A stretch of 64,000 bases of DNA from Bacteroidota bacterium (GCA_020160935.1 JAIUPL010000003.1:62001-126000), one strand, 5' to 3'. Positions 12,639 to 44,179 are shown, counted from the first letter of the stretch. A program made the numbers and translations. The notes: generated by a model from the letters alone, not told the origin.

Positions 12639-12729
12639 GTAGCCCGTACGGGAATCGAACCCGTGTTACAGGAATGAAAATCCTGCGTCCTAACCCCTAG
12701 ACGAACGGGCCTCTTGGCGGAAGCGGGGC
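12639..12729. repeat. attL: 91-bp direct repeat containing tRNA-Glu
   Basis: Bases 12639-12729 are identical to 44089-44179. The identity starts at GTAGCCCGTACGG and ends at AAGCGGGGC, and diverges at once on both sides. The repeat covers the whole tRNA plus 18 bp upstream of its 5' end. An integrase gene begins 42 bp further on. This identifies the left junction of the element. Confidence 0.93.
12640..12711 (-). tRNA. tRNA-Glu (anticodon TTC), left copy
   Basis: On the minus strand the 72-nt cloverleaf has acceptor GGCCCGT/ACGGGCT with a G-U at 1-72, anticodon stem CAGGA/TCCTG with loop TTTTCAT (anticodon TTC) and T-loop GTTCGATTC. CCA is not encoded. This copy keeps the host terminator but has element DNA upstream with no TAnnTTTG box, so it may be silent in the lysogen. 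Confidence 0.95.
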
Positions 12730-12744
12730 GCGAAGCAGAACGGG

Positions 12745-12764
12745 ACGACACCCAAACGACACCC
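12745..12764 (+). promoter_or_regulatory. Candidate integrase arm-binding sites (left)
   Basis: Two tandem ACGACACCC words lie here, 16 bp inside attL. The 11-mer AAACGACACCC at 12754-12764 recurs at 44022-44032, just inside the other end. Paired words at both ends fit arm-type sites of a lambda-type integrase. They were not tested. Confidence 0.45.
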
Positions 12765-12770
12765 GCTTAC

Positions 12771-13931
12771 ATGACAATCAGGATGAACCTAAAACGAACG
12801 ACCGGCAAACGATCCAGCATACGAGCAATTATCAGGCGAGAAGGGAAAAAATATAGCATTGGAACAGGTGTGACGGTTGATATAGAAGACTGGGATACAA
12901 AACGAGAGCGTTGCAAAACCAACACAATTGCAAATGCAAAAATCGAAGAGGTACGGAAAAAAATACAGCATTACATCGAAACAACGGGGTGTATTCCAGA
13001 AAAAAAGCATATTGAAAAAGAGGGAAGAGAAGCCATACAAGACCTGATCGAGGAGAAAAGATTGTCAATGGTAGCAATGAACTCAAGCGAGAACTCCTGG
13101 AGGTCGTACACAACCCTATCAAGCCTTGTAAGGCGATATACAGAAGAAACAAAGCGGAAAGAGGTATATGTCGACGAAATCACAACAAATTACATTGACA
13201 AGTTCATCGAATGGATGGTAAGCAAAGATTATGCAAGTAGCCATATTACTAAAATGACCCGCATACTACGAACGGTAACGCGCGAAAGGGTGAGCGAAAC
13301 ACAATGGAGAAAAGCAAAAATCCCCAAAAACCAGTTCACAGAAATGATATACCTCTCGAAAGAAGAGATAGAAAAGATAGAGAGATTCAATATTGACCAG
13401 AACGACAGCCTATCAAAAGTCCGCGATCTATTCCTCATCGGATGTTATACCGCTCTCAGGTACTCCGATTGGAGAAAAGTCGATGAAACAAGGGTGAAAA
13501 CAATTGGAAACGTACGCATACTAATAATAACACAACAAAAAACAGGAGGGCAAACTACGCTTCCTATTACAGATAAATTAAACGCCATCATGCAGAAATA
13601 CAAGGCTGATGGCATACCTAAACTATCAAATCAAAAATTCAATCAACGGGTAAAGGAATTGTGCCGAAAGGCTGGCATTACACAAAATGTAGCCTATACT
13701 GAATACAGAGGGGGGAAAATAATATCGATTACAGCGCCTAAATGGACTTTAATTTCATCACACACGGCCCGACGATCCTTCGCCACCAATGCGGTAATGG
13801 CGGGCATTCCATTCGTGGAGGTTATGAAATTCACAGGCCACAAATCGATGGCTGCTTTCATGCAGTATGTTCGTACAACCGGCCAGGAGGCTGCTGTCAA
13901 CTACGCGAATCACCCGTTTTTCACGCAGTAA
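12771..13931 (+). CDS. int: Tyrosine recombinase (phage integrase)
   Basis: It catalyses site-specific integration and excision at tRNA-Glu. The 386-residue protein has an N-terminal arm-binding region, a SAM-like core-binding domain (about 110-200) and a catalytic domain. Catalytic residues are visible: Arg in CYTALRYSDWR near 230, HTARR near 330, His in FTGHKSM near 357 and the nucleophile Tyr in MQYVRTT near 366. The domain order matches Bacteroidota integrases with Arm-DNA-bind_5 and SAM_5 domains. The ATG at 12771 is preferred; an in-frame TTG at 12714 would start inside attL. Confidence 0.93.
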   Translation: MTIRMNLKRTTGKRSSIRAIIRREGKKYSIGTGVTVDIEDWDTKRERCKTNTIANAKIEEVRKKIQHYIETTGCIPEKKHIEKEGREAIQDLIEEKRLSMVAMNSSENSWRSYTTLSSLVRRYTEETKRKEVYVDEITTNYIDKFIEWMVSKDYASSHITKMTRILRTVTRERVSETQWRKAKIPKNQFTEMIYLSKEEIEKIERFNIDQNDSLSKVRDLFLIGCYTALRYSDWRKVDETRVKTIGNVRILIITQQKTGGQTTLPITDKLNAIMQKYKADGIPKLSNQKFNQRVKELCRKAGITQNVAYTEYRGGKIISITAPKWTLISSHTARRSFATNAVMAGIPFVEVMKFTGHKSMAAFMQYVRTTGQEAAVNYANHPFFTQ

Positions 13932-14083
13932 TCGATGACTGCCTGAAAGAGGTTGAGGATAATAGACAGCCAAATGGCAACTTCCAAAATGCGCCACATG
14001 AATGGCGTAATTACCCGAACGGAAGGGTTTGAATAGGCGACCTCATCATCAAGGTGCAAGAAATGTCTGATCTTCTGTTTCAT
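13910..14083 (-). CDS. Small single-pass membrane protein
   Basis: The 57-residue protein starts MKQKIRHFLHLDDEVAYSNP and ends in one strong hydrophobic segment (MWRILEVAIWLSIILNLFQA). A TATTTTTG -7 box ends about 7 bases before the ATG, with TTTG 17 bp further up, which supports this start and a near-leaderless transcript. Its tail overlaps the integrase tail by 22 bp on the opposite strand. Function unknown. Confidence 0.65.
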   Translation of the reverse strand: MKQKIRHFLHLDDEVAYSNPSVRVITPFMWRILEVAIWLSIILNLFQAVIDYCVKNG

Positions 14084-14118
14084 AGTACAAAAATAGGGTA
14101 GGGACTGGCAATCAAAGG
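14084..14118 (-). promoter_or_regulatory. Promoter of the small membrane protein
   Basis: Minus-strand TTTG, 17-bp spacer, then TATTTTTG matches the Bacteroidota -33/-7 consensus. It places transcription start within a few bases of the ATG at 14083. Confidence 0.55.
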
Positions 14119-14805
14119 TAACATGCTTCGGTTGCCGGCCACCACTCGCCGGTCGTGCCTCCCGGCTCGCGGCCACCGGCGCCCGTCGCGCCACTCACAT
14201 CTATCTCGGCATCCCACAACGCCCGCCCTCCCGCGGCAGGCCTGAAAAAGGCCAGCCGCTTACCGCTCTGCTGCCATTGGCGCGGCTTCGCCGCCGTTTC
14301 AGGCGCTTCGCTTTTCACGCGCAAATCAATCCTGGAAAAGAACCACCCATCGCGCGGTTGGCCCCGGCCATCATCAGCAGCAGCAGCCCGCCCCCGGCCC
14401 CCCGCACGCGCCCACCACGGCCGCCCGAAAGCACTCGGGTAACTCGGCCACCCATCGGGCGGCCGCGGCGGGGCCCACGCCGTCCGGCCTTAGTCTACTC
14501 GAAAAACTTGGCAACTCACGGGCCGTCCGGCTGCGCGTTCAGGCCCGGTTTTTTGGGGGCGGCGGGCGGGCTGCTGCTGCTGCTGCCGTCCGGGGCCGTG
14601 CTTCGCGCTCGGCATCCCGCGGGCGGTGGCGTCCTGCACTGGTTGCCGCGCCGGCAGCCGATCCAGCGCTGACCACCAAGCCCGCAGGCGGCAGCGTTTT
14701 TCCGGCGCTACGCGCGCGTTATTCTCGGGGTTTGTGTTGTCCTAAATCGTTGTTTTTATGCGAGTTATCCACATTTTCCGTCTACTGTTTGTGGAAAAAT
14801 ATTAT
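14119..14805. other. GC-rich gap of about 700 bp without a credible gene
   Basis: This stretch is far richer in G and C than its surroundings. The open frames in it are Pro/Arg/Ala-rich and unstable across frames, so I call none. It shares the word GGTCGTGCCTCCC with the second odd gap near 27.56 kb. CAGCAGCAGCAG and CTGCTGCTGCTGCTG runs occur at about 14379 and 14570. It separates the integrase end from the rightward operon promoter. Confidence 0.5.
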
Positions 14806-14809
14806 GTGT

Positions 14810-14847
14810 AATATTGTTGCACAATATTTAATAATATTGTAAATTTG
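14810..14847 (+). promoter_or_regulatory. Promoter and palindromic operator of the rightward operon
   Basis: TAAATTTG at 14840-14847 is a good -7 box. TTG at 14817-14819, with a 20-bp spacer, is the -33 element. The palindrome AATATTGTTGCACAATATT (14810-14828, 8-bp arms) covers the -33 element, as expected for a repressor site. The same sequence in the opposite orientation occurs at 43379-43395, by the divergent promoters at the other end. Confidence 0.75.
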
Positions 14848-14868
14848 TTGAACAAACAAACAAAGGAA

Positions 14869-15401: not shown

Positions 15402-15525
15402 TCGGGCCTCAGGGCACACTTCATTTTCAATCAAACTTACATTTTGGCGATGTCCGGCAGCGCAGCAGCAAAAGAGCGCAAGCGGGCCGGGTTTGCCGCC
15501 AATCACATTAAAAAAAAACGCCATT

Positions 15526-16389
15526 ATGTTATTGCAAAAACACCTCGATTTAGCGATTCGCGCCCACGATGGTACTTCAATGGTACCCGAAACAAGAGGC
15601 GCGCAATACATCAAAGACTACAGCCAGCAACTTGAGGAGGACCTCCAAAGGGTTGAAAAATTGGGCGGAGATACCACCTACTACCAACAGGAGTACGAAA
15701 GCCTTTTCGTGTCGTGGATGTCTGCAAAGTCCCGCTGTATTTCGTCCATGATTACCGGCCCTTCAAACTTTCCAGTTCGACGCGCTGAAAAGGCAAACCA
15801 ATCCGAGCATAACCGGTACCAGGAGTTTTCCGGCTGGCGTGAAAAGTTTTTTGCGCGGCTCGAAAAGGCGAAGCGGCGCGAGGCCCGCTCGGCATCCGAT
15901 CCGATAGCCGAAATGCGGGCCAAATTGGAAAATGCTGAAAAATTACAAGTGCTGATGGTTGCAGCAAACAAGGTAGTACGCGACAAAAAGCGGAGCAATT
16001 CGACCAAAATCGCCGACCTGATAAACTTGGGAATTTCCGAAAGAGCCGCTACTGAACTACTTACTCCGGACTGGTGTAACCGCATCGGCTTTGCGTCCTA
16101 CCAACTGCAAAACAACCTCGCAAATATTAAACGCATGCGTGAACGCCTGGCTGAACTGGAAGCCAAAGCCAGCGCCGAAAGCCAAGAATTGGAGCGCCCG
16201 GACGGTATCCGGATTGTCAAAAACACAGACGCCGACCGCTTACAAATCTTCTTTCCCGGCAAGCCGGATGCCGCCACAATCACAGCCCTCAAGAAAAACG
16301 CTTTCAAGTGGTCGCCCTCGAATGGCTGTTGGCAGCGGCAACTAACAGGAAACGCGCTTTACGCCCTCAAAATGGTGCTGCCAACATAG
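15526..16389 (+). CDS. Hypothetical helical element protein with C-terminal small beta domain
   Basis: A 287-residue protein (MLLQKHLDLAIRAHDGTSMV start) made mostly of charged helices, then a compact C-terminus (DADRLQIFFPGKPDAATITA, KWSPSNGCWQRQL, TGNALYAL) of a type seen at the ends of large polyvalent phage and plasmid proteins. No enzyme motif is evident. A run of nine A at 15510-15518 precedes it; an upstream frame from ATG 15450 reaches that run, so a +1 slip could extend the protein by about 20 residues. TTG 15493 is another start. Confidence 0.75.
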   Translation: MLLQKHLDLAIRAHDGTSMVPETRGAQYIKDYSQQLEEDLQRVEKLGGDTTYYQQEYESLFVSWMSAKSRCISSMITGPSNFPVRRAEKANQSEHNRYQEFSGWREKFFARLEKAKRREARSASDPIAEMRAKLENAEKLQVLMVAANKVVRDKKRSNSTKIADLINLGISERAATELLTPDWCNRIGFASYQLQNNLANIKRMRERLAELEAKASAESQELERPDGIRIVKNTDADRLQIFFPGKPDAATITALKKNAFKWSPSNGCWQRQLTGNALYALKMVLPT

Positions 16390-18266: not shown

Positions 18267-18995
18267 ATGAACAAATCTTTTCGCATCCCCGACAATATGC
18301 TTTTCGACGGTCAGATACCGGCCAGCGCGGCAGGTATGGAATTGGCAACCATGAAAGCCGTAGAAAGCGGGCTATCTGAGTGGCAACGCGCCCGTTTGGG
18401 AAAAATTACCGGTAGTTGTTTCAATCGTGTGACGCGCGGCAGAGGTGGGAAGGGTTGGAGCCAAACAGCAGAAACATACCTGTACGATCTTATCGGTGAA
18501 TGGATGACTATGCAACCGGCCAGTAAGTTCACCGGTAACCGAGCAACCGAATGGGGCGAATTATGGGAGCCGCAAGCCATCAACGAATACCAGTTTCGTA
18601 CCGGCCGGAAAGTGAATAGAGGTAAGTTTTACCGTGCTGAAAAGTTCCGATTGGTGGGATGCACACCGGATGGGGTAGGGAAGCGAGGCCTTGAGGTCAA
18701 GTGTCCGCTATCCTACAAAAACCACTTGCGGACGCTGATCAGTAAGGAAATTCCAAGCGAATATCAAGATCAAGTGAACGGCCACATGCTTTGTACTGGC
18801 CGAAAAAAATGTGATTTCGTTTCGTTTCACCCGGAAATGAAACGAAAAGAATGGCAGATGATCGTGATTGAAACCGATTGGAATAAACTCGAAATGGAAG
18901 AGTTAAGCGACCGGCTTTTTGAATTTGAAACGTGGCTTATTTCTCACCTCGACGAACTAGATATTGACTGGAGAAACCCTAATTATTTCAATTAA
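18267..18995 (+). CDS. YqaJ-like viral recombinase / lambda-type exonuclease
   Basis: A 242-residue nuclease that would resect linear DNA during phage recombination. PD-(D/E)xK residues are visible: Glu in GNRATEWGELWEPQAINEYQ near 95, Asp in GCTPDGVGKRG near 133 and LEVKC near 142. Arg/Ser in ITGSCFNRVT near 48 match the YqaJ opening. With the previous gene it forms a Red-like pair, although no RecT or Erf annealase is seen. The length is normal for the family. Confidence 0.88.
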   Translation: MNKSFRIPDNMLFDGQIPASAAGMELATMKAVESGLSEWQRARLGKITGSCFNRVTRGRGGKGWSQTAETYLYDLIGEWMTMQPASKFTGNRATEWGELWEPQAINEYQFRTGRKVNRGKFYRAEKFRLVGCTPDGVGKRGLEVKCPLSYKNHLRTLISKEIPSEYQDQVNGHMLCTGRKKCDFVSFHPEMKRKEWQMIVIETDWNKLEMEELSDRLFEFETWLISHLDELDIDWRNPNYFN

Positions 18996-19030: not shown

Positions 19031-19762
19031 ATGTCACAAAAAGTAAAAATCTACCGCCACCCAGCAGACCGTTCTACGATCATTGTCGAGACGGAAAACG
19101 TCACGATTACCTATGTGAATGACAGTGAAGATGAGGCCACGAAAAAAATGGAGGAATTGAAGAAGGTTGACCCTGCATTATTCGACAAAACATTTCAAGA
19201 ACTCAAAGAAGTCTGGGAGCCGGACATCAACCCCGTCAACGAACGCCTTTTGCAGTGCCTGAAAGAATACCGTTCCGCACAGCGCCAAATACTCGAAAAG
19301 TGGTCAGAAGGCGATCACCATGTAAAAGCAAGGCTATGGAAGGACTTGCACCAATGCGAAGATGCCGCAACGGAGGCAATCGAAATCGCAGAAGGCTGGG
19401 AGATTCAAGCGAGAACCACGCCGACAGGTTTGATCAATTCGGCACTCATTGCGGCCACTCGTAATGCACCTATTGGAACAGGTATTACCCAAAAAGCCTT
19501 ATCGGAATTGCTTGAAAGCCTCCAGCCGGAGCCCCATTTTTTGAGCACAAGCGACCCTCGTATTCACGCATTCGTAAAGGCCTCCAAATTCGCCATGCGC
19601 CTGTTATCTCAAAATTCAGACGATGCAGTAGCGCAGGTTTGTGTAGAACAACTTGCCAAAGCCATTGAGGGGGTAACCATCTATGGCACCGGCCCAATGA
19701 TCCAGGAGCGCCCGCGTCCAGAAGATGGCTCATACTACACAAGACACACCGACGACTTTTAA
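19031..19762 (+). CDS. Hypothetical element protein
   Basis: A 243-residue protein. Residues 1-40 are beta-rich (VKIYRHPADRSTIIVETENV), 40-130 long helices (NERLLQCLKEYRSAQRQILE), and 150-225 further helices. No enzyme motif or membrane segment. It lies between the exonuclease and DUF5675 genes, so a link to DNA metabolism is possible but not shown. Confidence 0.7.
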   Translation: MSQKVKIYRHPADRSTIIVETENVTITYVNDSEDEATKKMEELKKVDPALFDKTFQELKEVWEPDINPVNERLLQCLKEYRSAQRQILEKWSEGDHHVKARLWKDLHQCEDAATEAIEIAEGWEIQARTTPTGLINSALIAATRNAPIGTGITQKALSELLESLQPEPHFLSTSDPRIHAFVKASKFAMRLLSQNSDDAVAQVCVEQLAKAIEGVTIYGTGPMIQERPRPEDGSYYTRHTDDF

Positions 19763-19790
19763 TCAATTATCACTCAATCACACTTCATTT

Positions 19791-20297
19791 ATGCTACTCA
19801 AAACGACAATCATCCACGAAACCCATGTTGCCACGGTTTCTATTTTGGAAATCGACGGCGTTTTCTTCGGTTTCATTCTCGAAGACGGTTTCCGCGAAAA
19901 CAAAGTGCCCGGCGAAACCCGAATTCCGGGAGGCCGCTACCGGATTCTTCCACGCACAGAAGGCAAGTTCTACACCAAATACAAGAGCCGTTTCAAACAC
20001 CGGTTTGTGCCGCATTTACAGGATGTGCCAGGTTTTACCTTCATTCTCATGCACATCGGCAACGGCCCAGACGATTCGCGCGGCTGTCTGCTCGTCGGGC
20101 GCCAGTGGATATATACCGGAAACTCACATTGCATCGGCAACTCGAGTGAAGCATACCAACGACTGTACGAAACCATCGAGGGGGCGCTTCTCCGAAAAGA
20201 AGAGGTCTGGATTGTAGTCGACCGTACTCCAATGAAAGACCGGATTTCAGTCGGCCAGCCCGCCCCAGCAGCCCACACCGCCGCCACTATTCTTTAA
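19791..20297 (+). CDS. DUF5675 family protein
   Basis: The 168-residue protein has the DUF5675 core: FILEDGFRENKVPGETRIPG, GRYRILPRTEGKFY, FVPHLQDVPGFTFILMHIGN and DSRGCLLVG near 50-110. The family is widespread in phages and bacteria, with unknown function. The start at 19791 follows the recurrent leader TCAATCACACTTCATTT. A 24-residue membrane peptide gene follows directly, so a role at the envelope or in lysis is possible. Confidence 0.87.
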   Translation: MLLKTTIIHETHVATVSILEIDGVFFGFILEDGFRENKVPGETRIPGGRYRILPRTEGKFYTKYKSRFKHRFVPHLQDVPGFTFILMHIGNGPDDSRGCLLVGRQWIYTGNSHCIGNSSEAYQRLYETIEGALLRKEEVWIVVDRTPMKDRISVGQPAPAAHTAATIL

Positions 20298-22293: not shown

Positions 22294-23028
22294 ATGAAAC
22301 TTCTCGATGTATACAGCGGGGCTGGCCTCGCTGCAATTGGTTACAAACAAGCCGGATTCCATGTAACAGGAATAGATATAGAAAAGAAATCCTGCTATGC
22401 CGGTGATACCTGGGTTCAGGCCGACGCGCTGGAAGTGCTTTCAGACCTGGATTACTGCCGACAATTTGACGCAATACATACCAGCCCACCATGTCAGAAG
22501 TATACGCAATCAACCGCAATGTTCCGCGCAGCCGGAAAAGAATACGCAGACCTGATTAAACCTACACGGATTGCACTCGAAAAAATCGGGCTCCCCTATA
22601 TAATCGAAAACGTGCCAACAGCGCCAATCCGGCCAGACATCGTGCTACACGGGTGGATGTTCAACCTCAACGTAATGCGAAAAAGGCATTTTGAGTTAGG
22701 CAACTGGTGGATGATGCAACCTGGTGTAAGGCAGAGAAAAGGGAGCGTCAAAAACGGCGATTTTATAACAATTATAGGAAAGCAAGGATACAAAAAATAC
22801 AAAGGATTGCCGAAAGGGTGGCGTCCAAAATTCGATCAGGGGACAGGCCTTAAAACCTGGCATTTTTCCATGGGCATACCGGAAGAGTATAAATTCCGAG
22901 ACGTTGAAATATCGGAGGGTATTCCACCAGCATACGCAAAATATATAGGTGAACACCTATACGAATTTCTGATTAAAACCGCCCCTCATGGCTCAAAAAC
23001 GCAGCCTGGGCGGGTTTCTATCACATGA
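22294..23028 (+). CDS. C5-cytosine DNA methyltransferase-like protein
   Basis: A 244-residue SAM-dependent methyltransferase. Motifs: DVYSGAGLAAIGYKQAGF (motif I) at 5-22, TSPPCQKYTQ (PCQ catalytic loop) near 70, YIIENVP (ENV) near 105 and MRKRHFELG (RxRxF, motif VIII) near 128. It is short for a C5-methyltransferase, with a small target-recognition region, which is usual for phage versions. No cognate endonuclease is nearby, so protection against host restriction or regulation is likely. Confidence 0.83.
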   Translation: MKLLDVYSGAGLAAIGYKQAGFHVTGIDIEKKSCYAGDTWVQADALEVLSDLDYCRQFDAIHTSPPCQKYTQSTAMFRAAGKEYADLIKPTRIALEKIGLPYIIENVPTAPIRPDIVLHGWMFNLNVMRKRHFELGNWWMMQPGVRQRKGSVKNGDFITIIGKQGYKKYKGLPKGWRPKFDQGTGLKTWHFSMGIPEEYKFRDVEISEGIPPAYAKYIGEHLYEFLIKTAPHGSKTQPGRVSIT

Positions 23029-26445: not shown

Positions 26446-26479
26446 GTTACATAAATGAAGTGTGATTGAAAAAGGCTTG

Positions 26480-26938: not shown

Positions 26939-27026
26939 GTTTGAAGCGATTTTGAAGTGAAACAATGATTTGAATCCTCAAAATTATTTCAAAATGAGTT
27001 AAAATTGTTTTAAGTAGGCAAACGTG

Positions 27027-31408: not shown

Positions 31409-31825
31409 TTACTTCCTGAATATTGCAGCGGTTCGGAGCCGCACCGTTCGAGAGCCAGAAGGCGTGATTGCATACACGCGAATCCGTCGAGCGTACAGAA
31501 TCCCATCCCATCCGTATTCGTCGTAAGAGGATGCAGGGCCGTCTATGGTGATGCTTGTCGAGTGATTCCACCATAGTGTACCATCGTTCGAAAATTGCAG
31601 GTACACCGTTCCCGCATTTGCGCCGGTAAGCGAGTCCGCTCGCACATGAACCGAATACTTCCAGTTCGCAGGTTTCGATTTTGAGTCTGTCAGGCCCAGG
31701 TACAGAATGGCAGTATCCTGATTCGTAAGGGTTTGGTCATCGCTGTACGTGATCGGCACCTGCGCAGTAAGGCTCGAAAAGGACGCCACCAGAGCCAACA
31801 GGAGAATGAGAAATTTGTATTTCAT
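31409..31825 (-). CDS. Exported beta-rich element protein
   Basis: A 138-residue protein with a clear signal peptide (MKYKFLILLLALVASFSSLT, cleavage after AQ) and a beta-sandwich-like mature part (ADSLTGANAGTVYLQFSNDG, YARRIRVYAITPSGSRTVRL). No family recognised. It precedes the tail-collar gene. A signal peptide on a gene in the structural block is odd. Confidence 0.72.
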   Translation of the reverse strand: MKYKFLILLLALVASFSSLTAQVPITYSDDQTLTNQDTAILYLGLTDSKSKPANWKYSVHVRADSLTGANAGTVYLQFSNDGTLWWNHSTSITIDGPASSYDEYGWDGILYARRIRVYAITPSGSRTVRLRTAAIFRK

Positions 31826-31849
31826 GAATAACTGATTGAAAATGATAAA

Positions 31850-32002
31850 AAATTGAAGCGGAAGGCTTCCGTTTTGCTTCCGGCTGCCTTCCGCTCGGTT
31901 TCCGGCTCGCTTCCGCTTCGACTTCCGTTGCTTCCGCTCCATTTCCGGAATGCTTCCGGCCGGCTTCCGCTTTGGCTTCCGTCACTTCCGCTTCCCTTCC
32001 GC
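31850..32002 (-). repeat. Array of about 15 CGGAA words between two late genes
   Basis: On the minus strand the word CGGAA (usually CGGAAGC) recurs about 15 times in roughly 150 bp at irregular 8-16-bp spacing. Every TTCC on the plus strand here is followed by G. The stretch lies after the stop of the 32003-32260 gene and before the ATG at 31825, so it appears non-coding. The coiled-coil gene at 20722-21768 has the same word on its coding strand. Confidence 0.75.
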
Positions 32003-32260
32003 CTACTCTTCCGGGGCTTCCGGGCCTTTTCCGCTCTCCTTGCCTTTTCCAGCGCCCTTGCCTTTTTGTGCTGCAGTATCTTCGGGCGTTGTACCGGTTC
32101 CCTCATACGCTGCAACTTCCTCTGCCGAAGCCACCCGCACGACATGAAGTTTCTGCAGTTTAGCGAAGTCTTTTTCCTGAATTACGCCGGTTTCGCCAGC
32201 GTGATAGCCGTAACCGTAAGGATTACCCGCCTGCAAAAAATGAACGATTTTCTTTGCCAT
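32003..32260 (-). CDS. Small capsid-module protein
   Basis: An 85-residue protein directly downstream of the major capsid gene. The first 55 residues look folded (MAKKIVHFLQAGNPYGYGYH; FAKLQKLHVVRVASAEEVAA). The tail is Lys/Gly-rich (GKGAGKGKESGKGPEAPEE). Position suggests a decoration or head-associated protein, but I do not recognise a family. The leader CAAATCACACTTTAACATG follows the operon's pattern. Confidence 0.7.
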   Translation of the reverse strand: MAKKIVHFLQAGNPYGYGYHAGETGVIQEKDFAKLQKLHVVRVASAEEVAAYEGTGTTPEDTAAQKGKGAGKGKESGKGPEAPEE

Positions 32261-32298
32261 GTTAAAGTGTGATTTGAAATGAAAAGGATCGAGGCGCC

Positions 32299-33705
32299 TT
32301 AGGACACCTCGATCTCGTTGCATACGGTGAATGATTTGTTGTGAGCCACGCCGAGGTCATACCAGGAGTGGATGATCAGTTCGACGAGCGCGTCTTTGCC
32401 TTTCGTGTAAGGATTTACCAGCAAGTCAATGCCGCCCCACTGGGAAATGATCAGATCGGCCCAGTTACCGAAAATCATGGCGTGGAGGTTCGTGCCCGAT
32501 CCTTTCGAAAGGTTTTTCGGAACATTGTTCGAGGCCAGGGCGCGGTAGCCGTTGACGGTGGCGTTGCGGTTCGGCCCTTCCCAGATGAAGCCGTTGCCGG
32601 CCACATCCCGTTTTTCCGTTTTCAGGTAACCCGCTACACCCGGAGTGGTGATGTATCCGAGCGCGCCCATGTCCGCGTTTTCGAGTGCGCATTTCGTCTC
32701 GAATTCCACGATACGAGCCCAGTCCAGCAGACCGCCGTCAGTGCCCAGGTCGATGTCGCCGATACCAGATACATTCATGACGCCCTGGGGCACACCCGAC
32801 GCGCCAGCGCCGTTGATTGCTGCGATGTCGAGCGCCTGCATGACAGCCATGTTCAATTGACGACGGATGAAGTTTTCCATCGGCAGGTTCGACTGCACAA
32901 TGTTCTGTTTCGATACATCGGTGAAGGCGGTCAGACGTTTCGGAGTCAGCGACAGCAGTTCAAAACCGGGTGTGGTTTCGCTTGCAGTTGCGTTTTCAGT
33001 ACTGGCCCAGGATGCCGCTGCAGCGCTGGAATTGCGCGGGAAAGACAGGTGTTGCGTCTGATTTCCGAAGTACGTTGCCCCCATATCCAGCACCGAAAGG
33101 CGAGGGTACAGAAATTCGATCAGTTTGCCGAGGGCAGTCTCAATGGTGTAGCCACCCGTTGCTCCTGTATTCGCAGTAATATCACGACGTTCGACGCCGT
33201 CCCAATCGTTTTGGGCCTGGGAAATGAGGAATGATGGAATGTGCAGGTTGCCAGTAAATGTGATGTCACCGCCTGCGCTTCGCGCTTCATTCGCGGCTTC
33301 CTGCATCATTTCACCTTCGAGCCCTTCCGGTGCACGATTGGCAACGACGGCCTGAATGGCTTTGATGAGGGAGTAATTTTTCCGGGCGTTTTCCTTGCTG
33401 TCCCCACGGTTTTTGATGACGCCAACCGTGGTCGTTGAGCGCTGTTCGGGAGCGCCTTCCGAATCGCTGTCGGTGCTGGCAGCACCACCGGCACGGGAAA
33501 GGATGTCTACTGAGGCAGTCAAACGGCTGATGGTCTGATCGAGCGAGTTGATGTTGCGCTGTTCAGTTTCGAAAGCGGGACCGTCCGTATCCTCCACCCA
33601 TTCGGGAGTGCCGAGTTTGGCCGAAATCGCAGCGAAACGAATATCCGCTTGCGCCCGCGCTTCCCGCGCTTCTCGCAGTTGTTGAAAAAGAGGTTGAGTA
33701 CTCAT
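32299..33705 (-). CDS. Major capsid protein (HK97 fold)
   Basis: A 468-residue protein. Residues 1-75 form a coiled N-terminal delta-domain-like scaffold (LFQQLREAREARAQADIRFA) that the upstream protease would remove. The body fits HK97 capsids: FPRNSSAAAASWASTENATA near 225, LTPKRLTAFTDVSKQNI near 253, GVPQGVMNVSG near 305 and the C-terminal IFGNWADLIISQWGGIDLLV near 415. Gene order protease-capsid supports the call. Confidence 0.93.
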   Translation of the reverse strand: MSTQPLFQQLREAREARAQADIRFAAISAKLGTPEWVEDTDGPAFETEQRNINSLDQTISRLTASVDILSRAGGAASTDSDSEGAPEQRSTTTVGVIKNRGDSKENARKNYSLIKAIQAVVANRAPEGLEGEMMQEAANEARSAGGDITFTGNLHIPSFLISQAQNDWDGVERRDITANTGATGGYTIETALGKLIEFLYPRLSVLDMGATYFGNQTQHLSFPRNSSAAAASWASTENATASETTPGFELLSLTPKRLTAFTDVSKQNIVQSNLPMENFIRRQLNMAVMQALDIAAINGAGASGVPQGVMNVSGIGDIDLGTDGGLLDWARIVEFETKCALENADMGALGYITTPGVAGYLKTEKRDVAGNGFIWEGPNRNATVNGYRALASNNVPKNLSKGSGTNLHAMIFGNWADLIISQWGGIDLLVNPYTKGKDALVELIIHSWYDLGVAHNKSFTVCNEIEVS

Positions 33706-33739: not shown

Positions 33740-34411
33740 TTACAGGTTTCGTTTGCGCAGGATTACCCGCGCTTCATGCTGTCGACGCTGGAGCAATTCG
33801 GCATTCCGCTGCTCGGTTTCGTCAGGAACTGGAGTCTGCTCAATCGCCTCGGCTTCAATTTCTTCCTGAATGGCAGTTTCATCCAGACTGCGGGCGAAGG
33901 TTGACGTTGAGTTGTAGGCCGGGGCGATAACAGGCCCGTGTTCCAGAATGCGAGGAAAGCGCTTGATAGTGCGAAGAATCACACCATCAGGACAGGGCGA
34001 GAGATCGTAGCAATCTGCCGGCAGCGGCGGGAACTGAAAACTACTGCCTTTCGCTTCACGGCGTTGTATCCGACGAAACGCTGCAACATGCGTCGGGTCT
34101 TCCGGGTCGTGATCGTATTCGTACCATGCGCCATGGTCATCTACACCGCTACGAAGGTTGGGAGCCGAAGCCAAGTAGTCACGGTGGTCAAAGTAGCACA
34201 CAACGTCAGAGAAGTCGGTACCGTCAAAAGCGCCAGGAAGGATTTTCTCCCGGAATTTCGTGCCCTTAGGTGTCTGCATCACCCGGCTTTCGCGGTTGAA
34301 AACAGCCCAGTACCCAAAAACACGAATTCCGCCACCATCTTGCATGGAGCGGATCTCAGGTGTTTCGTCACAGAAAAAAGGGTCACCGACCCGGTTGCGC
34401 AGGTTCGACAT
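33740..34411 (-). CDS. HK97-type prohead protease
   Basis: A 223-residue protein that would cleave the capsid delta domain during head maturation. Seen: VFGYWAVFNRESRVM near 27, KILPGAFDGTDF near 55, FDHRDYLASAPNLRSGVDDH near 73 (candidate catalytic His), and GSSFQFPP near 120. Starts 28 bp inside the portal gene end. Residues 185-223 are charged helix, probably not part of the protease fold. Confidence 0.85.
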   Translation of the reverse strand: MSNLRNRVGDPFFCDETPEIRSMQDGGGIRVFGYWAVFNRESRVMQTPKGTKFREKILPGAFDGTDFSDVVCYFDHRDYLASAPNLRSGVDDHGAWYEYDHDPEDPTHVAAFRRIQRREAKGSSFQFPPLPADCYDLSPCPDGVILRTIKRFPRILEHGPVIAPAYNSTSTFARSLDETAIQEEIEAEAIEQTPVPDETEQRNAELLQRRQHEARVILRKRNL

Positions 34412-35783
34412 TGTCAGAAGAATTTTGTTGTTGTGGATGAGCGTTTGCCGCGTTCCGGCCTTTTTCACCCTCCGAAGAGAGATATTTTGCAAGGGCTACC
34501 TCTACCAGTTGATCCAGCGGAAGCAGGTTGATATTACCGAAAAGTTGATCGCCATCGGGCTTGGGTTCCAGTCCGAGTTCTTTCCTTGCTTCATTCGGGG
34601 TCATCATCGACGAAGCCACGAGCACAGCCAGCCGTTCAGCATCCGTTTTTCGAACGTTGGCCTCGGTTTCTTTATCCATTTCGAGGTACATGCTCACATC
34701 GTACTCGAAATAGTATTTACGGGTGGCAAACTCGTTGGTGTAGAAAAGTTGGGAATTAATTGCTTCCTCAAATTTCTCGCGCCATGGGCCAAGGCAATGC
34801 ATGAGAAAATCCTGGCTGTGCGACTTTTTCGCGCCATAAGTACCTTTCTGATCCAGCGCCATCATGTCGGCTGGCACCTTCCAAATCCGGCAACAATCAC
34901 GAACGGTCAGGTCGTTGAAGTCAATCAGAGCAACATCGTTTGGCGTCCACTGGAGGTACTCAATCTCCATATCTTCATCGAGGATGAAAGGCTTTCCTGC
35001 ATTCACCGAGCCACCATATTCCTGAATGATATTTTCCTTTAGGGCGGTTCGTTCATCCGCATCTAATGGCTGCTTGTGTTTCACAGCGATCGACGGTGTT
35101 GCCCTGTTACCGAAAATGGCTTCCGAGTATTCACGCGAAGCCAGGCCAGCCGCGAAGGTCGGACGGTGTACCAACGTCATTGGTAGGCCCTCCATAGCAT
35201 TCAGCGTAACGCCCTTGATATGGATAATGTCGGTATAAGGAACACGGCGAGAAATAACCCGCCCATTGAGGTAGCCGTTGATGGCATACAACAATTCACC
35301 ATTTACGCCATACTCAGGATAGCACATATTGCTCGGAATGTGCTCCAGCGCATACGGGCGCATGGTGAATTCGTCCCGATAGATCAGCGCGTAGCCATTG
35401 CCCATGCAGGCATTCGTAATCAACGCGGCCGTAAAGTCGAACCAAGTGTAGTAGGGGTGAGGCTTGCCGTTGAAAAAAAGTTGCAGATCGTGATTTTCTG
35501 CCAGTTCACCATTGCGCTTACGAACCTTACGATCCAGCATCGCCACGCCTTCGGCGATATACCGAATTGCCGCAAACGCAGGCGGCAAACCCATCACCGT
35601 TTCGTCATTGACAGCAACGCCCGCGGGAGAAGTAGGGAAAAAAGGGAAAGGTTGGTTCAGGTAGTAGGTGCGCTTTTCTGTGATCGATTGCGCTGGTGTT
35701 TCCGGCGCCACGGCTGCAGATATCACCGCTGCCTGTGTTACCGTTGCATCATCCCAGAAAAGTCGTGTGAACCAATTTGCCAT
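34383..35783 (-). CDS. Portal protein (HK97 family)
   Basis: A 466-residue protein forming the dodecameric DNA entry ring of the head. Seen: AAIRYIAEGVAMLDRKVRKR near 70, LLITNACMGNGYALIYRDEF-like segment near 120, IIHIKGVTLNAMEGLPM near 185, VPADMMALDQKGTYG near 305 and PNEARKELGLEPKPDGDQLF near 410. The ATG at 35783 is preferred over 35816. It overlaps the protease gene by 29 bp. Confidence 0.92.
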   Translation of the reverse strand: MANWFTRLFWDDATVTQAAVISAAVAPETPAQSITEKRTYYLNQPFPFFPTSPAGVAVNDETVMGLPPAFAAIRYIAEGVAMLDRKVRKRNGELAENHDLQLFFNGKPHPYYTWFDFTAALITNACMGNGYALIYRDEFTMRPYALEHIPSNMCYPEYGVNGELLYAINGYLNGRVISRRVPYTDIIHIKGVTLNAMEGLPMTLVHRPTFAAGLASREYSEAIFGNRATPSIAVKHKQPLDADERTALKENIIQEYGGSVNAGKPFILDEDMEIEYLQWTPNDVALIDFNDLTVRDCCRIWKVPADMMALDQKGTYGAKKSHSQDFLMHCLGPWREKFEEAINSQLFYTNEFATRKYYFEYDVSMYLEMDKETEANVRKTDAERLAVLVASSMMTPNEARKELGLEPKPDGDQLFGNINLLPLDQLVEVALAKYLSSEGEKGRNAANAHPQQQNSSDNVEPAQPGR

Positions 35784-35834
35784 ATTGTTGAATAATATTG
35801 CAAAATTGCACCACAACTATACCAACGTTGTGTT
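35784..35834. promoter_or_regulatory. Gap with partial copies of the operator half-site
   Basis: ATATTGTTG at 35784-35792 and ATTGCA words just after it resemble halves of the operator palindromes at 14810 and 43379. The gap separates the portal from the small gene before it. Whether it is a promoter is unclear. Confidence 0.3.
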
Positions 35835-36059
35835 TCACGGGTAACACATTACAGCGCGAGGGCGCGCACGAACAGGGCTTTTATGTTTTCCAGCCCTAAA
35901 ACTTCCGTAAGTGCTATGCCGGTTCATACCATAGCGCTCGAAAAGTTCTTTTTCGAGAGCCGCCCAGGCTTCGCGGTTCGGAGCGCGACTATCCTGATTT
36001 TCGGCAACCAATTCCCAGAAACGGGCCATGTAGCCCTCAATAGTCGTAAGATCGTGCAT
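35835..36059 (-). CDS. Small packaging-region protein
   Basis: A 74-residue protein (MHDLTTIEGYMARFWELVAE start; NREAWAALEKELFERYGMNR in the middle) between TerL and portal, 4 bp after TerL. Conserved in similar Bacteroidota prophages by pattern, without known function. Confidence 0.68.
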   Translation of the reverse strand: MHDLTTIEGYMARFWELVAENQDSRAPNREAWAALEKELFERYGMNRHSTYGSFRAGKHKSPVRARPRAVMCYP

Positions 36060-38097: not shown

Positions 38098-38487
38098 CTA
38101 CCTTTTATTATCCGGCAGTATCACCGCAAACCCGCCTCCAAGCGGATTCTCCGGGTCGTCTCCCAGGTTGATCGTTTTGCCAAAACCGGTTTCCGATAAC
38201 CAGCGCGCCGCCGCAACGTCACCCTTTTTCGCAGCCTTCCGGAACATCTTCACCACCACGGCTTCAGCGGCTGGCAGCGATACTTGCACCTTCACGCGCT
38301 CGCCGGTAACCTCTCCATCAACAACAAGAAACCCATCGAGTACCAGTTCCGTATGCCCACCCTCAGCCTGGGCCCGTATCGCCTCCTTAAACGGATTTTT
38401 GGGCCGCCCAGCACCTGGCAACCCCGGATCACCCGGCTGCTGAGCCATCAAAGTGCCTCCGTTTTTACCAGATACCTGTTTTGCCAT
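38098..38487 (-). CDS. Terminase small subunit-like protein
   Basis: A 129-residue protein. GAGRPKNPFKEAIRAQAEGG near 28 and FRKAAKKGDVAAARWLSETG near 85, with FGKTINLGDD after it, fit the DUF5681/TerS pattern in which a GRPK opening is followed by a helix repeat ending in LxxxxGFGK. It would recognise the packaging site. Position just before TerL supports this. Start chosen at MAKQVSGKNGG; an upstream ATG at 38529 is possible. Confidence 0.68.
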   Translation of the reverse strand: MAKQVSGKNGGTLMAQQPGDPGLPGAGRPKNPFKEAIRAQAEGGHTELVLDGFLVVDGEVTGERVKVQVSLPAAEAVVVKMFRKAAKKGDVAAARWLSETGFGKTINLGDDPENPLGGGFAVILPDNKR

Positions 38488-38595
38488 TTGAAACAATTTT
38501 TGACAATGGTGAAACAATTTTTGAGCCAATACTCTAACTGCCGCCCCTCGCCAATGCTGCCTAAACGTTGCACGGCAAGGGGCTTGGAGTTGTCT

Positions 38596-39394: not shown

Positions 39395-39853
39395 TTAAAG
39401 ATTTGTGTGTGTCTGGTTTTTACGGCGCCAAAATCCTTCTGAAAAACTGTCGAACTGCCGCACGAGGAAAACCTCGCCGCCCGACTTTTTGAGTGTTCGC
39501 ATAAACTGGTCTTGTTCTGGTCGTATCTGGTCGGAGCCGATCTTTACCTCAACCGCAACCCACTGGCCGGTTGCAAGATTCCAGCCGATTACGTCCGAAA
39601 CGCCTTTGAGGTTATCCGGAACTTTGCGCCAGGACTTCGCCAAAGCCGCTTTCACGGCGGCCTCCATTTGCTCGTCACTGATATGAGGATTGTTGCGCAA
39701 AGCCTTTACGATCTTTATCAGCCGCTCCAGAGCGTCCTCGGCATCAAACCGGCCGTAATTCTCCTGCCTCCAAACGAAGTACCCATTTCTATTCAGGAAA
39801 TTCACCACCTTATTGATCAGGGAGTTTTGCGTTTCCGCTGGAAGTCGTGTCAT
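39395..39853 (-). CDS. VRR-NUC domain nuclease
   Basis: A 152-residue protein with the VRR-NUC PD-(D/E)xK core: KGVSDVIGWNLATGQWVAVE near 82-101, then VKIGSDQIRPEQDQFMRTLK with Gln, and VFLVR near 130. Asp and ExK residues are present. Phage members act as Holliday-junction resolvases or structure-specific nucleases. It overlaps the previous gene by 44 bp and probably serves replication or recombination. Confidence 0.83.
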   Translation of the reverse strand: MTRLPAETQNSLINKVVNFLNRNGYFVWRQENYGRFDAEDALERLIKIVKALRNNPHISDEQMEAAVKAALAKSWRKVPDNLKGVSDVIGWNLATGQWVAVEVKIGSDQIRPEQDQFMRTLKKSGGEVFLVRQFDSFSEGFWRRKNQTHTNL

Positions 39854-40055
39854 GATTATCTACAATTTGAAGCAGGTCGGAACCCACGGTTTTGATGATG
39901 TTTGCTTCGATTCCGCACATGAGTACGGTGATCGCCATATCGCGCCCGCAACCATAACCGGCCTGTATTTCGGCAATCATTTCACCGACCGACAGGGCGC
40001 CACGGTTGCGGACGCGATCGATCAAATCACTCAGCCTCGGCTTCTCCAGGTTCAT
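39810..40055 (-). CDS. Hypothetical protein with helix-turn-helix-like segment
   Basis: An 81-residue protein (MNLEKPRLSDLIDRVRNRGA start; VGEMIAEIQAGYGCGRDMAI). Helix-turn-helix-like spacing near 20-50, not a clear match. It overlaps both neighbours by 29 and 44 bp, so the three genes are probably coupled. Confidence 0.6.
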   Translation of the reverse strand: MNLEKPRLSDLIDRVRNRGALSVGEMIAEIQAGYGCGRDMAITVLMCGIEANIIKTVGSDLLQIVDNHDTTSSGNAKLPDQ

Positions 40056-40338
40056 TGTCAAAAAGTTCACCCTGCCGGCCAAGGCCCGCGGCTTCGCGGT
40101 AGTCGTCCAGCATGGTGTTGCAGGTGTTTACGCATTCTGCGATCGATGCCGCAACTGCTTCCTGTACTTCCTTGCTCCAGCCGTGAATGAGCGTGATTAC
40201 TGGCGATACTTTGTAGCGCAGGCGCAGATAATCGACTGAGCATTTCACGGTCAGCGGAATGTCTTTGCCGTCCAGGTTGAGCATGTGCTCGGATTTGAAT
40301 TTTTCACCCTCGCGGATGATTTTAGGTTTTACTGCCAT
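40027..40338 (-). CDS. Hypothetical small element protein
   Basis: A 103-residue protein. N-terminus KPKIIREGEKFKSEHMLNLD; middle VSPVITLIHGWSKEVQEAVA and C-terminal acidic tail (FDNEPGEAEAE). No family recognised. The 150-bp gap upstream of it holds no firm gene. Confidence 0.65.
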   Translation of the reverse strand: MAVKPKIIREGEKFKSEHMLNLDGKDIPLTVKCSVDYLRLRYKVSPVITLIHGWSKEVQEAVAASIAECVNTCNTMLDDYREAAGLGRQGELFDNEPGEAEAE

Positions 40339-40490: not shown

Positions 40491-40628
40491 CTAATCGCCA
40501 ATCACATGTGCTGTTTCCCCCACTTCACAGCACCCGAATCCACATCCACCGCCATCATAGGAATCAAAGAATGCCCCGACCATGCTCGGGGCCACACGCG
40601 ACGTACACAGTTGCCGGCCGGCTATCAT
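40491..40628 (-). CDS. Candidate 45-residue protein coupled to the upstream gene
   Basis: MIAGRQLCTSRVAPSMVGAF then FDSYDGGGCGFGCCEVGETA. Its ATG overlaps the preceding stop as ATGA, which supports translation. The CGFGCC cluster might bind metal. Short, so uncertain. Confidence 0.45.
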   Translation of the reverse strand: MIAGRQLCTSRVAPSMVGAFFDSYDGGGCGFGCCEVGETAHVIGD

Positions 40629-41374
40629 CCTGAAAATTGATGTTCGTGTGATTTTTGTTGCAGCGCCTCCAGTGCAGTTGAGAGTTCTCGTAGCCCGACC
40701 ACCCAGCGGCGTAGCACTTCCGCGCGGCTCCAATCCTGCCGGCGCGATTTGAATTCGTCGTTTTCTACCCAGTTGACAAGCCTGCGGGAATCACTGCTTC
40801 CACGGAGGGCCTCGTTGGTAAGGATTTTATTGACTGCAGCGATCGATAAGTCCCACACCTCCACGCATTCGGCTTTTGGCAGATTGCACATTTTCACCGT
40901 GTCCACAAAAACCTCGTAGTCGAATTTGGTAAAGTCGTTCACCGTGACGCTTTCGCGCGACAACCACCATGCAAGGCGATCAGAAACGAACTGTTCCAGG
41001 TCAAACACCGGTTTCGGCTTCGCAGCCAATTCCAGTTTCGAGTTCGCGGAATGCAATTCCGACACGACCCGGCTACGGTAATTTCGATAGGCATTCAATA
41101 CGCCACCCAGCGCGGCCACAGAAAACTGACCATAGTACGCCTGCAAATCAACATCGCCCAGGTCGCCAGCCGCTGCCAGGCTGAAAGCCAACTCGATTTC
41201 GTCAACTCCATACATACCGAAGCGATCCAGCACAAACATTCCCATTTCCTCAACAGTCCCTTCCTCAATTTTCGAGGCCCCGCAGTACGCTTTCGCGCAA
41301 TTTTTTAGCACTGCAGTAATAGCCAGAAAAAAGCCGTCCGAGTCTTCCCGCTCCAACCGACGCATCGACATTTC
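40625..41374 (-). CDS. Replication-associated protein in the helicase-loader position
   Basis: A 249-residue protein (MSMRRLEREDSDGFFLAITA start). The segment MFVLDRFGMYGVDEIELAFS then LAAAGDLGDVDLQAYYGQFS and LNAYRNYR matches a family found next to initiators in Bacteroidota prophages. It follows the O-like gene as lambda P follows O, so helicase loading is a reasonable inference. A longer frame from 41545 would overlap the O-like gene by 151 bp with Gln/Pro-rich sequence; the ATG at 41374 is preferred. Confidence 0.68.
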   Translation of the reverse strand, partial: EMSMRRLEREDSDGFFLAITAVLKNCAKAYCGASKIEEGTVEEMGMFVLDRFGMYGVDEIELAFSLAAAGDLGDVDLQAYYGQFSVAALGGVLNAYRNYRSRVVSELHSANSKLELAAKPKPVFDLEQFVSDRLAWWLSRESVTVNDFTKFDYEVFVDTVKMCNLPKAECVEVWDLSIAAVNKILTNEALRGSSDSRRLVNWVENDEFKSRRQDWSRAEVLRRWVVGLRELSTALEALQQKSHEHQFSG

Positions 41375-41393
41375 CAACCCGGCCGCAATCCTC

Positions 41394-42305
41394 TCAACAT
41401 TCGCCAAAGCGACTCCGCTGCTGACGGCGACGTGCTGCAAGTCTTTGGGCTGTAGCAATGGTAGCGGCGCGGTCGGCCGCTGCGCGATCTGTAGCGCCAC
41501 TGTCGGTGGCGGGGCGATTTGCTGGATTTGTAGTTGAGTTGGCATTGGACGAAGCGGGTTGAAGTGTTACAAGTTTGTTTTTGCGCTGATCGTCCAGCGC
41601 AAACTTTCGAGCAGTAGAAATCCAGTCCAGCGACTTTCCGCCCCTTTCAGCCGACCAATCGCGGCAGCGAGCAAAATACCAGTATGGGTCAGCGTCAGGA
41701 ATATCGCATGCTGCAACGAATGCAGCGGCCCAGGTTTCCAGCGGCGTTTTCGCCCAGGGACTTTCTGAGAAAAGCGCCGGGGCCGGGTGAATCTGTTCCG
41801 AAAAAAGGGGGGCGGCCGCAACAGGGGGGATTTCTTGCTCTACGGGCTTTGAAGTCGATTGCCCGAGGTTGTTTTCGGCGGGCGCGCCGTCACTACTCAC
41901 TGTAATACTAACTGTATTACTCTCTATAATACTATGCTTGCGCTTTTCCGCAAGAGGTCTTGCGCTTTTCCGCAAGAGGGTATTGCGCTTTTCGTCAATA
42001 CCTCTTGCGCTTTTCCGCAATAGGGGGGTACCTTCCTTGATGTAAATAAGTCGTTGATTTCCAGCCTTTTTATCCAGTTTTACCGTAATAAAACCAAACT
42101 CTTGTAATTGCGAAATCCATCGACTTACGGTGTACTCTGAAACACCATATAGATTTGCAAAATATGCGTTGCTTGCCCAACAGTGACCTTTCTCAGTAGT
42201 CAGTGCTGTGATTTCGCAATACAGAAGTTTTGCGTTCGGAATCAGACCCTCGCAATAGCGAACGGTCGCCGGGATTAAGCCATAAAAATTGGGTTGAATA
42301 CTCAT
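41394..42305 (-). CDS. Replication initiator with N-terminal winged helix (lambda O-like)
   Basis: A 303-residue protein. Residues 10-90 form a helix-turn-helix domain (NAKLLYCEITALTTEKGHCW, YFANLYGVSEYTVSRWISQL, EFGFITVKLD) of the phage replication type. Residues about 95-125 are encoded by four DNA iterons (LLRKSARG, EKRNTLLRKSARPLAEKRK). Residues about 185-245 (PLETWAAAFVAACDIPDADP, YWYFARCRDWSAERGG) may be the helicase-contact domain. The layout copies lambda O with the origin inside its gene. Confidence 0.8.
   Translation of the reverse strand: MSIQPNFYGLIPATVRYCEGLIPNAKLLYCEITALTTEKGHCWASNAYFANLYGVSEYTVSRWISQLQEFGFITVKLDKKAGNQRLIYIKEGTPLLRKSARGIDEKRNTLLRKSARPLAEKRKHSIIESNTVSITVSSDGAPAENNLGQSTSKPVEQEIPPVAAAPLFSEQIHPAPALFSESPWAKTPLETWAAAFVAACDIPDADPYWYFARCRDWSAERGGKSLDWISTARKFALDDQRKNKLVTLQPASSNANSTTNPANRPATDSGATDRAAADRAATIATAQRLAARRRQQRSRFGEC
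41890..42020. other. Candidate replication origin: four iterons plus AT-rich segment
   Basis: Palindromic TTGCGCTTTTCCGCAA occurs at 41938-41953, 41960-41975 and 42005-42020. A variant (TTGCGCTTTTCGTCAA) is at 41983-41998. Starts are 22, 23 and 22 bp apart, about two helical turns. Immediately beside them, 41895-41937 is AT-rich and holds the inverted repeat GTAATAC/GTATTAC (41902-41920). All lie inside the initiator gene, as in lambda ori. Confidence 0.78.
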
Positions 42306-42374
42306 GAGACAACAGGCTTTGGATAGCATGCCTCAACTACGCAAGGCTTGCAATAGGTAATTAAATGAAGCATT

Positions 42375-43303: not shown

Positions 43304-43400
43304 GTTTGAAAAATTGCACAAGTGTGTTAAACACTCTTTACATTTGTGATTAATAGTCACAAAGATGGAATAATATTGAATATTGTGCAACAATAAACAA
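43304..43400. promoter_or_regulatory. Divergent promoter/operator region at right end of element
   Basis: On the minus strand TTG, 19 bp, CATCTTTG is a near-consensus promoter for the leftward operon. AATATTGTGCAACAATA (43379-43395) is the inverse of the left-end operator over 17 bp. Two further palindromes lie in the leader: TTGTGA/TCACAA at 43344-43362 and GTGTTAAACAC at 43324-43334. The divergent gene at 43425 starts just beyond. Confidence 0.68.
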
Positions 43401-43424
43401 TATTATTTATCAACACATCATAAC

Positions 43425-43793
43425 ATGAGAAACAATGAACTCGATCTGGAAACGGCAATAGACTATCTGGCCGGCAGAGACATCACAATCCAAAAGATTG
43501 TGGATAAGATGGGTATTGACAGGAACAAGTTCAACTCCTGGCGACGCTCTACGAAACCAGGCAGAAAAGCGGCTTTACACGATGAGTTGAAAAAAATGTT
43601 TCCTGAGTTGGAAAATGTTTCACCGCCCACTGAAGACGGACACAGGGCCTCGCTTGGTGAAAAATATACTCAACTCCTTGAAAAAAACATTGAGGAACTG
43701 AAAAGAGAGCGAGATGATTTGAAAAAACAAAACGAGGAACTGTTGCAGGAAATATTGAGAAATATCAGAAGAAGTGACCCTACAGCGACGTAA
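43425..43793 (+). CDS. Putative regulator: helix-turn-helix plus coiled coil
   Basis: A 122-residue protein. Residues 5-40 (DLETAIDYLAGRDITIQKIV with DKMGIDRNKFNSWRR) look like a helix-turn-helix. Residues 75-115 form a coiled coil (LLEKNIEELKRERDDLKKQN). It is divergent from the leftward operon and shares the operator region, the usual place for the master repressor. Which of the two flanking proteins binds the palindrome cannot be told. Confidence 0.65.
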   Translation: MRNNELDLETAIDYLAGRDITIQKIVDKMGIDRNKFNSWRRSTKPGRKAALHDELKKMFPELENVSPPTEDGHRASLGEKYTQLLEKNIEELKRERDDLKKQNEELLQEILRNIRRSDPTAT

Positions 43794-43814
43794 AAAAGCC
43801 AAACTATAACTCAT

Positions 43815-43979
43815 ATGAAAAGTCCGAAAAACAAACATGGAAACGACCCCGTAAAACCATATGAGAAAATAATCCTGATTTCAGAAATAATCAATTTGCG
43901 TCGATTAAGACGAAAACTCCGGAAAACCCTAAAACTATCAAGAGAAATAGCGCTTCAAATAGATAATCACACCGAATAG
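43815..43979 (+). CDS. Small basic protein, 54 residues
   Basis: The frame opens MKSPKNKHGNDPVKPYEKII and continues with INLRRLRRKLRKTLKLSREI, an Arg/Lys-rich helix. It lies 21 bp after the putative regulator and ends exactly at the terminator. It could be an excisionase-like or accessory DNA-binding protein. Short, so moderate confidence. Confidence 0.5.
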   Translation: MKSPKNKHGNDPVKPYEKIILISEIINLRRLRRKLRKTLKLSREIALQIDNHTE

Positions 43980-44016
43980 AAAAGGCCCGCCCTGGATAAC
44001 CAGAGCGGGCCTTTTT
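43980..44016 (+). terminator. Terminator at right end of the element
   Basis: AAAAGGCCCGC (43980-43990) pairs with GCGGGCC (44105 offset aside, at 44005-44011) followed by five T. It ends the short rightward regulator transcript before attR. Confidence 0.8.
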
Positions 44017-44021
44017 CAATC

Positions 44022-44035
44022 AAACGACACCCAAA
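44022..44035 (+). promoter_or_regulatory. Candidate integrase arm-binding site (right)
   Basis: AAACGACACCCAAA shares an 11-mer with the tandem words at 12745-12764, inside the left end. One site here and two there would suit an asymmetric integrase complex. Confidence 0.4.
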
Positions 44036-44088
44036 TCAACCTCCACATTTTCTAACTGTGTCTCCGTCAATGCTTTGCGGTGGCTTTT

Positions 44089-44179
44089 GTAGCCCGTACG
44101 GGAATCGAACCCGTGTTACAGGAATGAAAATCCTGCGTCCTAACCCCTAGACGAACGGGCCTCTTGGCGGAAGCGGGGC
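44089..44179. repeat. attR: 91-bp direct repeat containing tRNA-Glu
   Basis: Identical to 12639-12729. It marks the right junction. Sequence to its right is host DNA carrying the tRNA promoter. Confidence 0.93.
44090..44161 (-). tRNA. tRNA-Glu (anticodon TTC), right copy with host promoter
   Basis: The cloverleaf is identical to the left copy. Upstream it retains TATCTTTG and TTG at 21-bp spacing, so this is the copy likely expressed in the lysogen. Its 3' flank is element DNA; no terminator hairpin follows closely, and transcription would run toward the 54-residue gene's terminator on the opposite strand. Confidence 0.95.

Follow-up and report, generated by a model that had tools for sequence, protein, structure and literature searches.

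Capsid-forming satellites are already described from other bacteria. The capsid-forming phage-inducible chromosomal islands (cf-PICIs) are integrated elements which carry TerS, TerL, portal, protease, HK97 capsid and head-tail connector genes and no tail genes (PMC10690885; PMC11389934). They make and close their own head, and the tail is provided by a helper (PMC10690885; PMC11389934). The helper may also be absent from the host strain: for one E. coli cf-PICI, none of the known helpers is native to the strain in which it resides (PMC11389934). The cf-PISP is an episomal capsid-forming satellite-plasmid of Vibrio with a size of 15.8 kb and parA/repA (PMC13230959). MulchRoom and MiniFlayer are satellites of Streptomyces phages with virulent helpers and without key replication genes (PMC10690885). 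No report of capsid-forming satellites in Bacteroidota was found, within an incomplete coverage of the literature.

The window analysed here is a stretch of 64,000 nucleotides from a Bacteroidota genome. It contains an element which resembles a cf-PICI in its capsid, protease, portal and head-tail connector genes, in the lack of tail genes, and in the presence of an integrase and a chromosomal att site. The cf-PICI terminase pair is only partly recovered: TerL is clear (4e-86), while TerS is assigned by position and a weak DUF5681 similarity. The HNH endonuclease, a feature of the cf-PICI packaging module, had no match in the genes scanned, and a VRR-NUC gene is found beside TerS instead. Further differences are the size (31.5 kb, and 22 kb in relatives), the Collar-domain fibre and holins of its own, a T-free tract shared by four members (the window element and the related loci L028, L012 and L196) and the host phylum. 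The initial annotation had proposed a cf-PICI. That the element works like one is supported; its identity as a cf-PICI is not established. It was not classed as such because the HNH gene was not found and no data are available for the remaining cf-PICI features, namely a Stl-like regulator which responds to the helper phage, a capsid placed within a cf-PICI clade, and heads that receive helper tails and are transferred by the helper.

With the cf-PISP, the element shares head genes without tail genes. The cf-PISP is also circular and extrachromosomal and lacks a typical integrase, which seems to hold for L012 and L196 as well; it is, however, known from Vibrio only, and it differs from the window element, which sits in the chromosome. 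MulchRoom and MiniFlayer likewise have their own capsid and packaging genes, and MiniFlayer retains its own tail-fibre gene, but they differ from the element in their Streptomyces hosts, virulent helpers and absent key replication genes. Siphophages with related head genes, such as the loci L190, L160 and L102, possess homologous portal, protease, capsid, connector and adaptor genes in identical order. In contrast to the element, they have tail genes after the adaptor (in L102 a fibre, then tail completion) and lack the satellite signature genes.

Boundaries and mobility of the element

The integrated element of 31,450 bp at 12639-44179 is bounded by identical 91-bp direct repeats, each of which contains a complete tRNA-Glu (TTC). 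In the genome G028 of the same genus, one copy of the repeat (98.9%) lies between homologues of both flanking genes, which represents the empty site. The limits initially proposed for the element are thus exact to the base. Occupation of the tRNA-Glu site in the window and its vacancy in G028 indicate that the element is mobile. The features at both ends are:

12639..12729, no strand: attL, 91-bp direct repeat over tRNA-Glu, single copy at the G028 empty site
12714..13931, + strand: tyrosine integrase (phrog_1, 2e-21; PF00589)
43383..43793, + strand: putative DNA-binding protein adjoining attR, conserved in L028, L004 and L181
44089..44179, no strand: attR, 91-bp direct repeat over tRNA-Glu

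Relatives of the integrase in plasmid and phage records come nearly all from Bacteroidota. It is 56% identical to that of L004, located beside tRNA-Glu, and 54% identical to that of L181, beside tRNA-Arg. Among plasmid records, the nearest match of one flanking host gene is from Hymenobacter (68%). Both observations agree with a host in Bacteroidota. The region 14100-14700, between the integrase and the early operon, is GC-rich and C-rich and shows no clear gene.

Gene content

The early operon is located on the + strand from about 14.8 to 26.1 kb and includes:

15493..16389, +: primase-like or unknown early gene (phrog_19458, 2e-46)
18267..18995, +: RecE/YqaJ-type exonuclease (phrog_149, 2e-37), with homologues in the L012 and L196 records
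19725..20297, +: DUF5675 protein (PF18925)
22294..23028, +: C5-cytosine methyltransferase-like protein, 81% identical in L012
23055..23912, +: D12-class adenine methyltransferase (PF02086; PADLOC MTase_II)

In the genes tested, PADLOC recognised essentially methyltransferases only. The late operon runs on the - strand from about 42.3 to 26.2 kb in the following order:

41394..42329, -: replication initiator, helicase-loader-like (phrog_19658, 3e-26)
40625..41545, -: family signature protein, no assigned function
40027..40338, -: family signature protein
39395..39853, -: VRR-NUC nuclease, family signature (PF08774), full-length relatives >40% identical in tailless elements only
38098..38529, -: putative TerS, by position (DUF5681, weak, 0.003), conserved in L028, L012, L196 and L002
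36064..37560, -: TerL (phrog_979, 4e-86)
35835..36059, -: 74-aa family signature protein, between TerL and portal
34383..35816, -: portal (phrog_12, 2e-76)
33740..34492, -: head maturation protease (phrog_80, 1e-20)
32299..33705, -: HK97-fold major capsid protein (phrog_617, major head protein, 7e-54)
32003..32323, -: small head-associated protein, homologues 3' of the capsid gene in tailless and tailed relatives
31409..31942, -: small protein with signal-peptide-like N-terminus, homologues in L181 and L102/L104
29865..31334, -: Collar-domain fibre, putative receptor-binding protein (PF07484, 8e-19), 48% full-length in L028
29291..29902, -: 203-aa protein, mostly helical, conserved in L028 and L004
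28734..29291, -: head-tail connector (phrog_442, 3e-14; TIGR02215)
28453..28731, -: head-closure adaptor (stopper) (phrog_793/phrog_25, 1e-4), predicted structure closest to those of neck and stopper proteins
27639..28358, -: T-free tract on the late-operon sense strand, 720 bp, 1% T
27027..27617, -: holin/anti-holin-like (phrog_126, 7e-5), true start likely internal to the ORF
26480..26965, -: ORF for a 161-aa protein with signal-peptide-like N-terminus, no family match
26209..26598, -: holin-like (PF04531, 0.001, just below cut-off), 49% homologue in L004 located after adaptor and fibre

All head and packaging genes are intact. PHROG matches were obtained for the integrase, initiator, TerL, portal, protease, HK97 capsid, connector and adaptor as initially annotated. 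No PHROG match was obtained for the claimed TerS, which stands on position and the weak DUF5681 similarity. The claimed adsorption-like protein exists as a protein of the element's own, its identity being corrected to the Collar-domain fibre. The adaptor is the last recognised virion gene ahead of the T-free tract. Its structural model resembles SPP1 gp16, the lambda neck protein and the SaPI1 neck, with weak but consistent scores (E 0.003-0.02). The predicted structure of the 203-aa protein was too poor to be interpreted (pLDDT 57). Signal-peptide-like starts were observed in the window at 31409-31942, 29291-29902 and 26480-26965, in L012 at 12797-15307 and in L196 at 14910-17171, including fibre-like proteins of the relatives.

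Absence of tail genes

No late-operon gene matched the families of tail tube, tail completion, chaperone, tape measure or baseplate proteins, which confirms the lack of recognisable tail genes claimed in the initial annotation. Tail tube, tape measure and tail completion are criteria of a complete tailed prophage (Caudoviricetes), which the element does not meet. Related siphophages served to build profiles for six tail proteins, with which all loci fetched by then were searched. The profiles gave no match in the window, L028, L004, L012, L182 or L196. Outside the family, 42 loci had 5 kb or more of sequence downstream of the capsid gene, and tail matches were obtained in 41 of them, the exception being the very distant L015. 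Part of these loci had supplied training rows of the profiles. As an independent control, prophages were taken from Bacteroidota genomes outside the profile-building, and all six with enough sequence had tail matches after the connector.

Distant phages with a related capsid, portal or TerL have their tail module after the adaptor. In close relatives, the stretch from adaptor to holin is free of tail genes (L004, L012 and L196; L028 as far as the contig end), so that the comparison by which the tailless reading could have been refuted went in its favour. L104 and L165 were rejected as tailless candidates; their contigs end early, and in the sister L102 a fibre gene is followed by one for tail completion. 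The profiles may have missed strongly divergent tail proteins, a possibility which is not fully excluded, but the late genes left unassigned are few and none has tape-measure length.

Tailless relatives

Four relatives from IMG/VR (L028, L004, L012 and L196) display the gene order of the window without tail genes. L028 shows identities of 66% (TerL), 57% (portal), 51% (capsid) and 48% (fibre) and identical order. L004 covers the stretch from TerL through adaptor and fibre to holin. L028, L004 and L181 are contig fragments. L012 and L196 have a TerL of a different type (Terminase_3), with portal, protease, capsid and signature genes related to those of the window; neither yielded a relative of the window integrase. 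An exact end overlap of 127 bp closes the L196 record to a circle of 22,022 bp, and its missing tail genes are therefore not due to truncation.

The L012 record ends with exact repeats of 127 bp and 112 bp, which fits a circle of ~22.0 kb with two variant arms. A simple circle was rejected for this record, as the overlap is a variant bubble. In the reversed record (G1158), 1-2889 and 22017-24440 are two alternative early modules joined by exact repeats, probably strain variants of a single circular element. An XRE-type regulator was seen in L012 only. A Glucosaminidase domain (PF01832) at 4107-4844 of L196 is a candidate endolysin. After the adaptor, L012, L196 and L182 encode a protein of 685-836 aa without family match in the libraries tried; its start is signal-peptide-like, and the counterpart in L004 gave matches to tail fibres.

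The portal tree groups the tailless rows in a single clade with 100/100 support and 42-57% portal identity to the window, and tailed phages are its sister. The capsid tree did not recover the tailless rows as a single group, which indicates that capsid genes were probably exchanged between tailless elements and tailed phages. Among the fetched loci, VRR-NUC, the initiator, the 74-aa protein and two other signature proteins were present in most or all tailless members. None was found in tailed loci except for a 33% match to the 74-aa protein in L175. This comparison is weakened by the little sequence that many tailed loci hold upstream of TerL. When the collection was scanned separately with an alignment of VRR-NUC, full-length relatives with >40% identity occurred in six elements, all of them tailless.

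The distribution in sequenced genomes is patchy. A capsid search of 150 relatives returned the element itself and one distant prophage only. Portal searches at order, class and phylum level gave distant matches only, and those fetched with enough sequence all have tail genes. Capsid or portal searches covered >1,000 other Bacteroidota genomes without a close match, and TerL scans of genome contigs found nothing. Judged from sequence comparison, the tailless elements most likely represent a small family of their own.

The T-free tract

A homologous tract follows the adaptor in L028 (14285-15031). It is still T-free and ~70% identical over 984 aligned positions, flanks included, a conservation which refutes an origin as deletion scar. 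L012 (798-1523, 726 bp) and L196 (2012-3241, 1,230 bp) have T-free tracts between divergent operons. These and the tracts of the window and L028, in each of which T is missing from the sense strand of the late operon, are the four strongest single-base deserts in 255 loci (2.4 Mb), all in tailless elements. The tract might be an origin, a packaging site, an RNA or a disordered protein. As all six frames are open by composition, ORFs within the tract mean little. A period-3 signal is present, yet the lengths of alignment gaps are not multiples of three. The tract has no Rfam match, and the overall RNA folding of the L028 tract was not better than that of shuffles. At the 3' end of the tract, a long hairpin is conserved (window about 27430-27650, L028 about 14980-15190), with a z of -5.3 in the element (200-nt window).

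Nature of the element and its possible helper

The head and packaging set extends through a stopper-like adaptor without tail genes, from which it follows that a head can plausibly be made and closed while the tail must come from elsewhere. There is good reason to regard the element as an integrated, helper-dependent satellite which builds its own DNA-filled head, with the reservation that no helper, induction, particle or packaged-DNA data are available. The mixed capsid tree and the fragmentary state of L028, L004 and L181 count against it, and so do the holins and the own fibre, possibly dispensable for an element that only steals tails. Holins and fibre also speak for an autonomous phage whose tail is short or novel and consists of unrecognised proteins, as do the late genes without family match and the long post-adaptor protein of L012, L196 and L182. 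The unassigned late proteins are, however, few, only 106-203 aa long and in several cases secreted-looking. Two of them have homologues in tailed relatives, of which L102 carries a standard tail gene and L190 a standard tail module. The long protein of the relatives has the signal-peptide-like start and the fibre-matching L004 counterpart mentioned above. Such a phage is considered improbable. There is also a slight chance that no helper is needed, if an adaptor-closed head carried the Collar-domain fibre directly on its neck and delivered DNA as a tailless HK97 particle.

The alternative raised in the initial annotation, a decayed prophage whose tail module was lost where the adenine-free gap now lies, agrees with the homology of the head genes to those of tailed siphophages and with the sister position of tailed phages in the portal tree. 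It fails on the supported portal clade, across the whole of which tails are missing, on the complete circular relative of 22 kb (L196), also without tail genes, and on the gap itself, whose T-free sequence is conserved (70% identity with L028). Every head gene is intact as well, and decay is thus very unlikely. Head-only clusters could be retained for other uses. This is the only point in favour of a head module which the host retains in domesticated or gene-transfer-agent-like form, and no result here indicates it. Integrase, initiator, att repeats and the empty site of the congener rather mark a mobile element, and its patchy distribution, without a close match in the other Bacteroidota genomes searched, leaves this explanation hardly credible.

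The element and its relatives are most likely a new Bacteroidota family of capsid-forming satellites that use helper tails and work in a cf-PICI-like manner. After excision and replication, the satellite would package its own DNA into its own heads, and connector and adaptor would close the filled heads; both steps are inferred from gene content. The tail of a helper phage would then dock on the neck of the element, which is inferred and not shown. The Collar-domain fibre may join the borrowed tail, or the neck, and alter adsorption.

Searching the host genome for a helper by portal, Terminase_6N and PhageMin_Tail families returned the element only. A tape-measure profile revealed a contractile-tailed prophage at about 236-261 kb of contig C43 of the host genome G000 (L301, L302), with TerL, portal, sheath, tube, tape measure and baseplate-like genes. 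No integrase or transposase was recognised in it. Its similarity to the element is limited to a distant methyltransferase and a marginal match of an exonuclease. A fibre-like gene of this prophage has a signal-peptide-like start. The prophage is a possible, unproven helper.

A separate lineage in Bacteroidota would support a repeated origin of tail theft. With a satellite head and a fibre of its own in the same element, it becomes testable whether satellites can alter the host range of the tails that they borrow.
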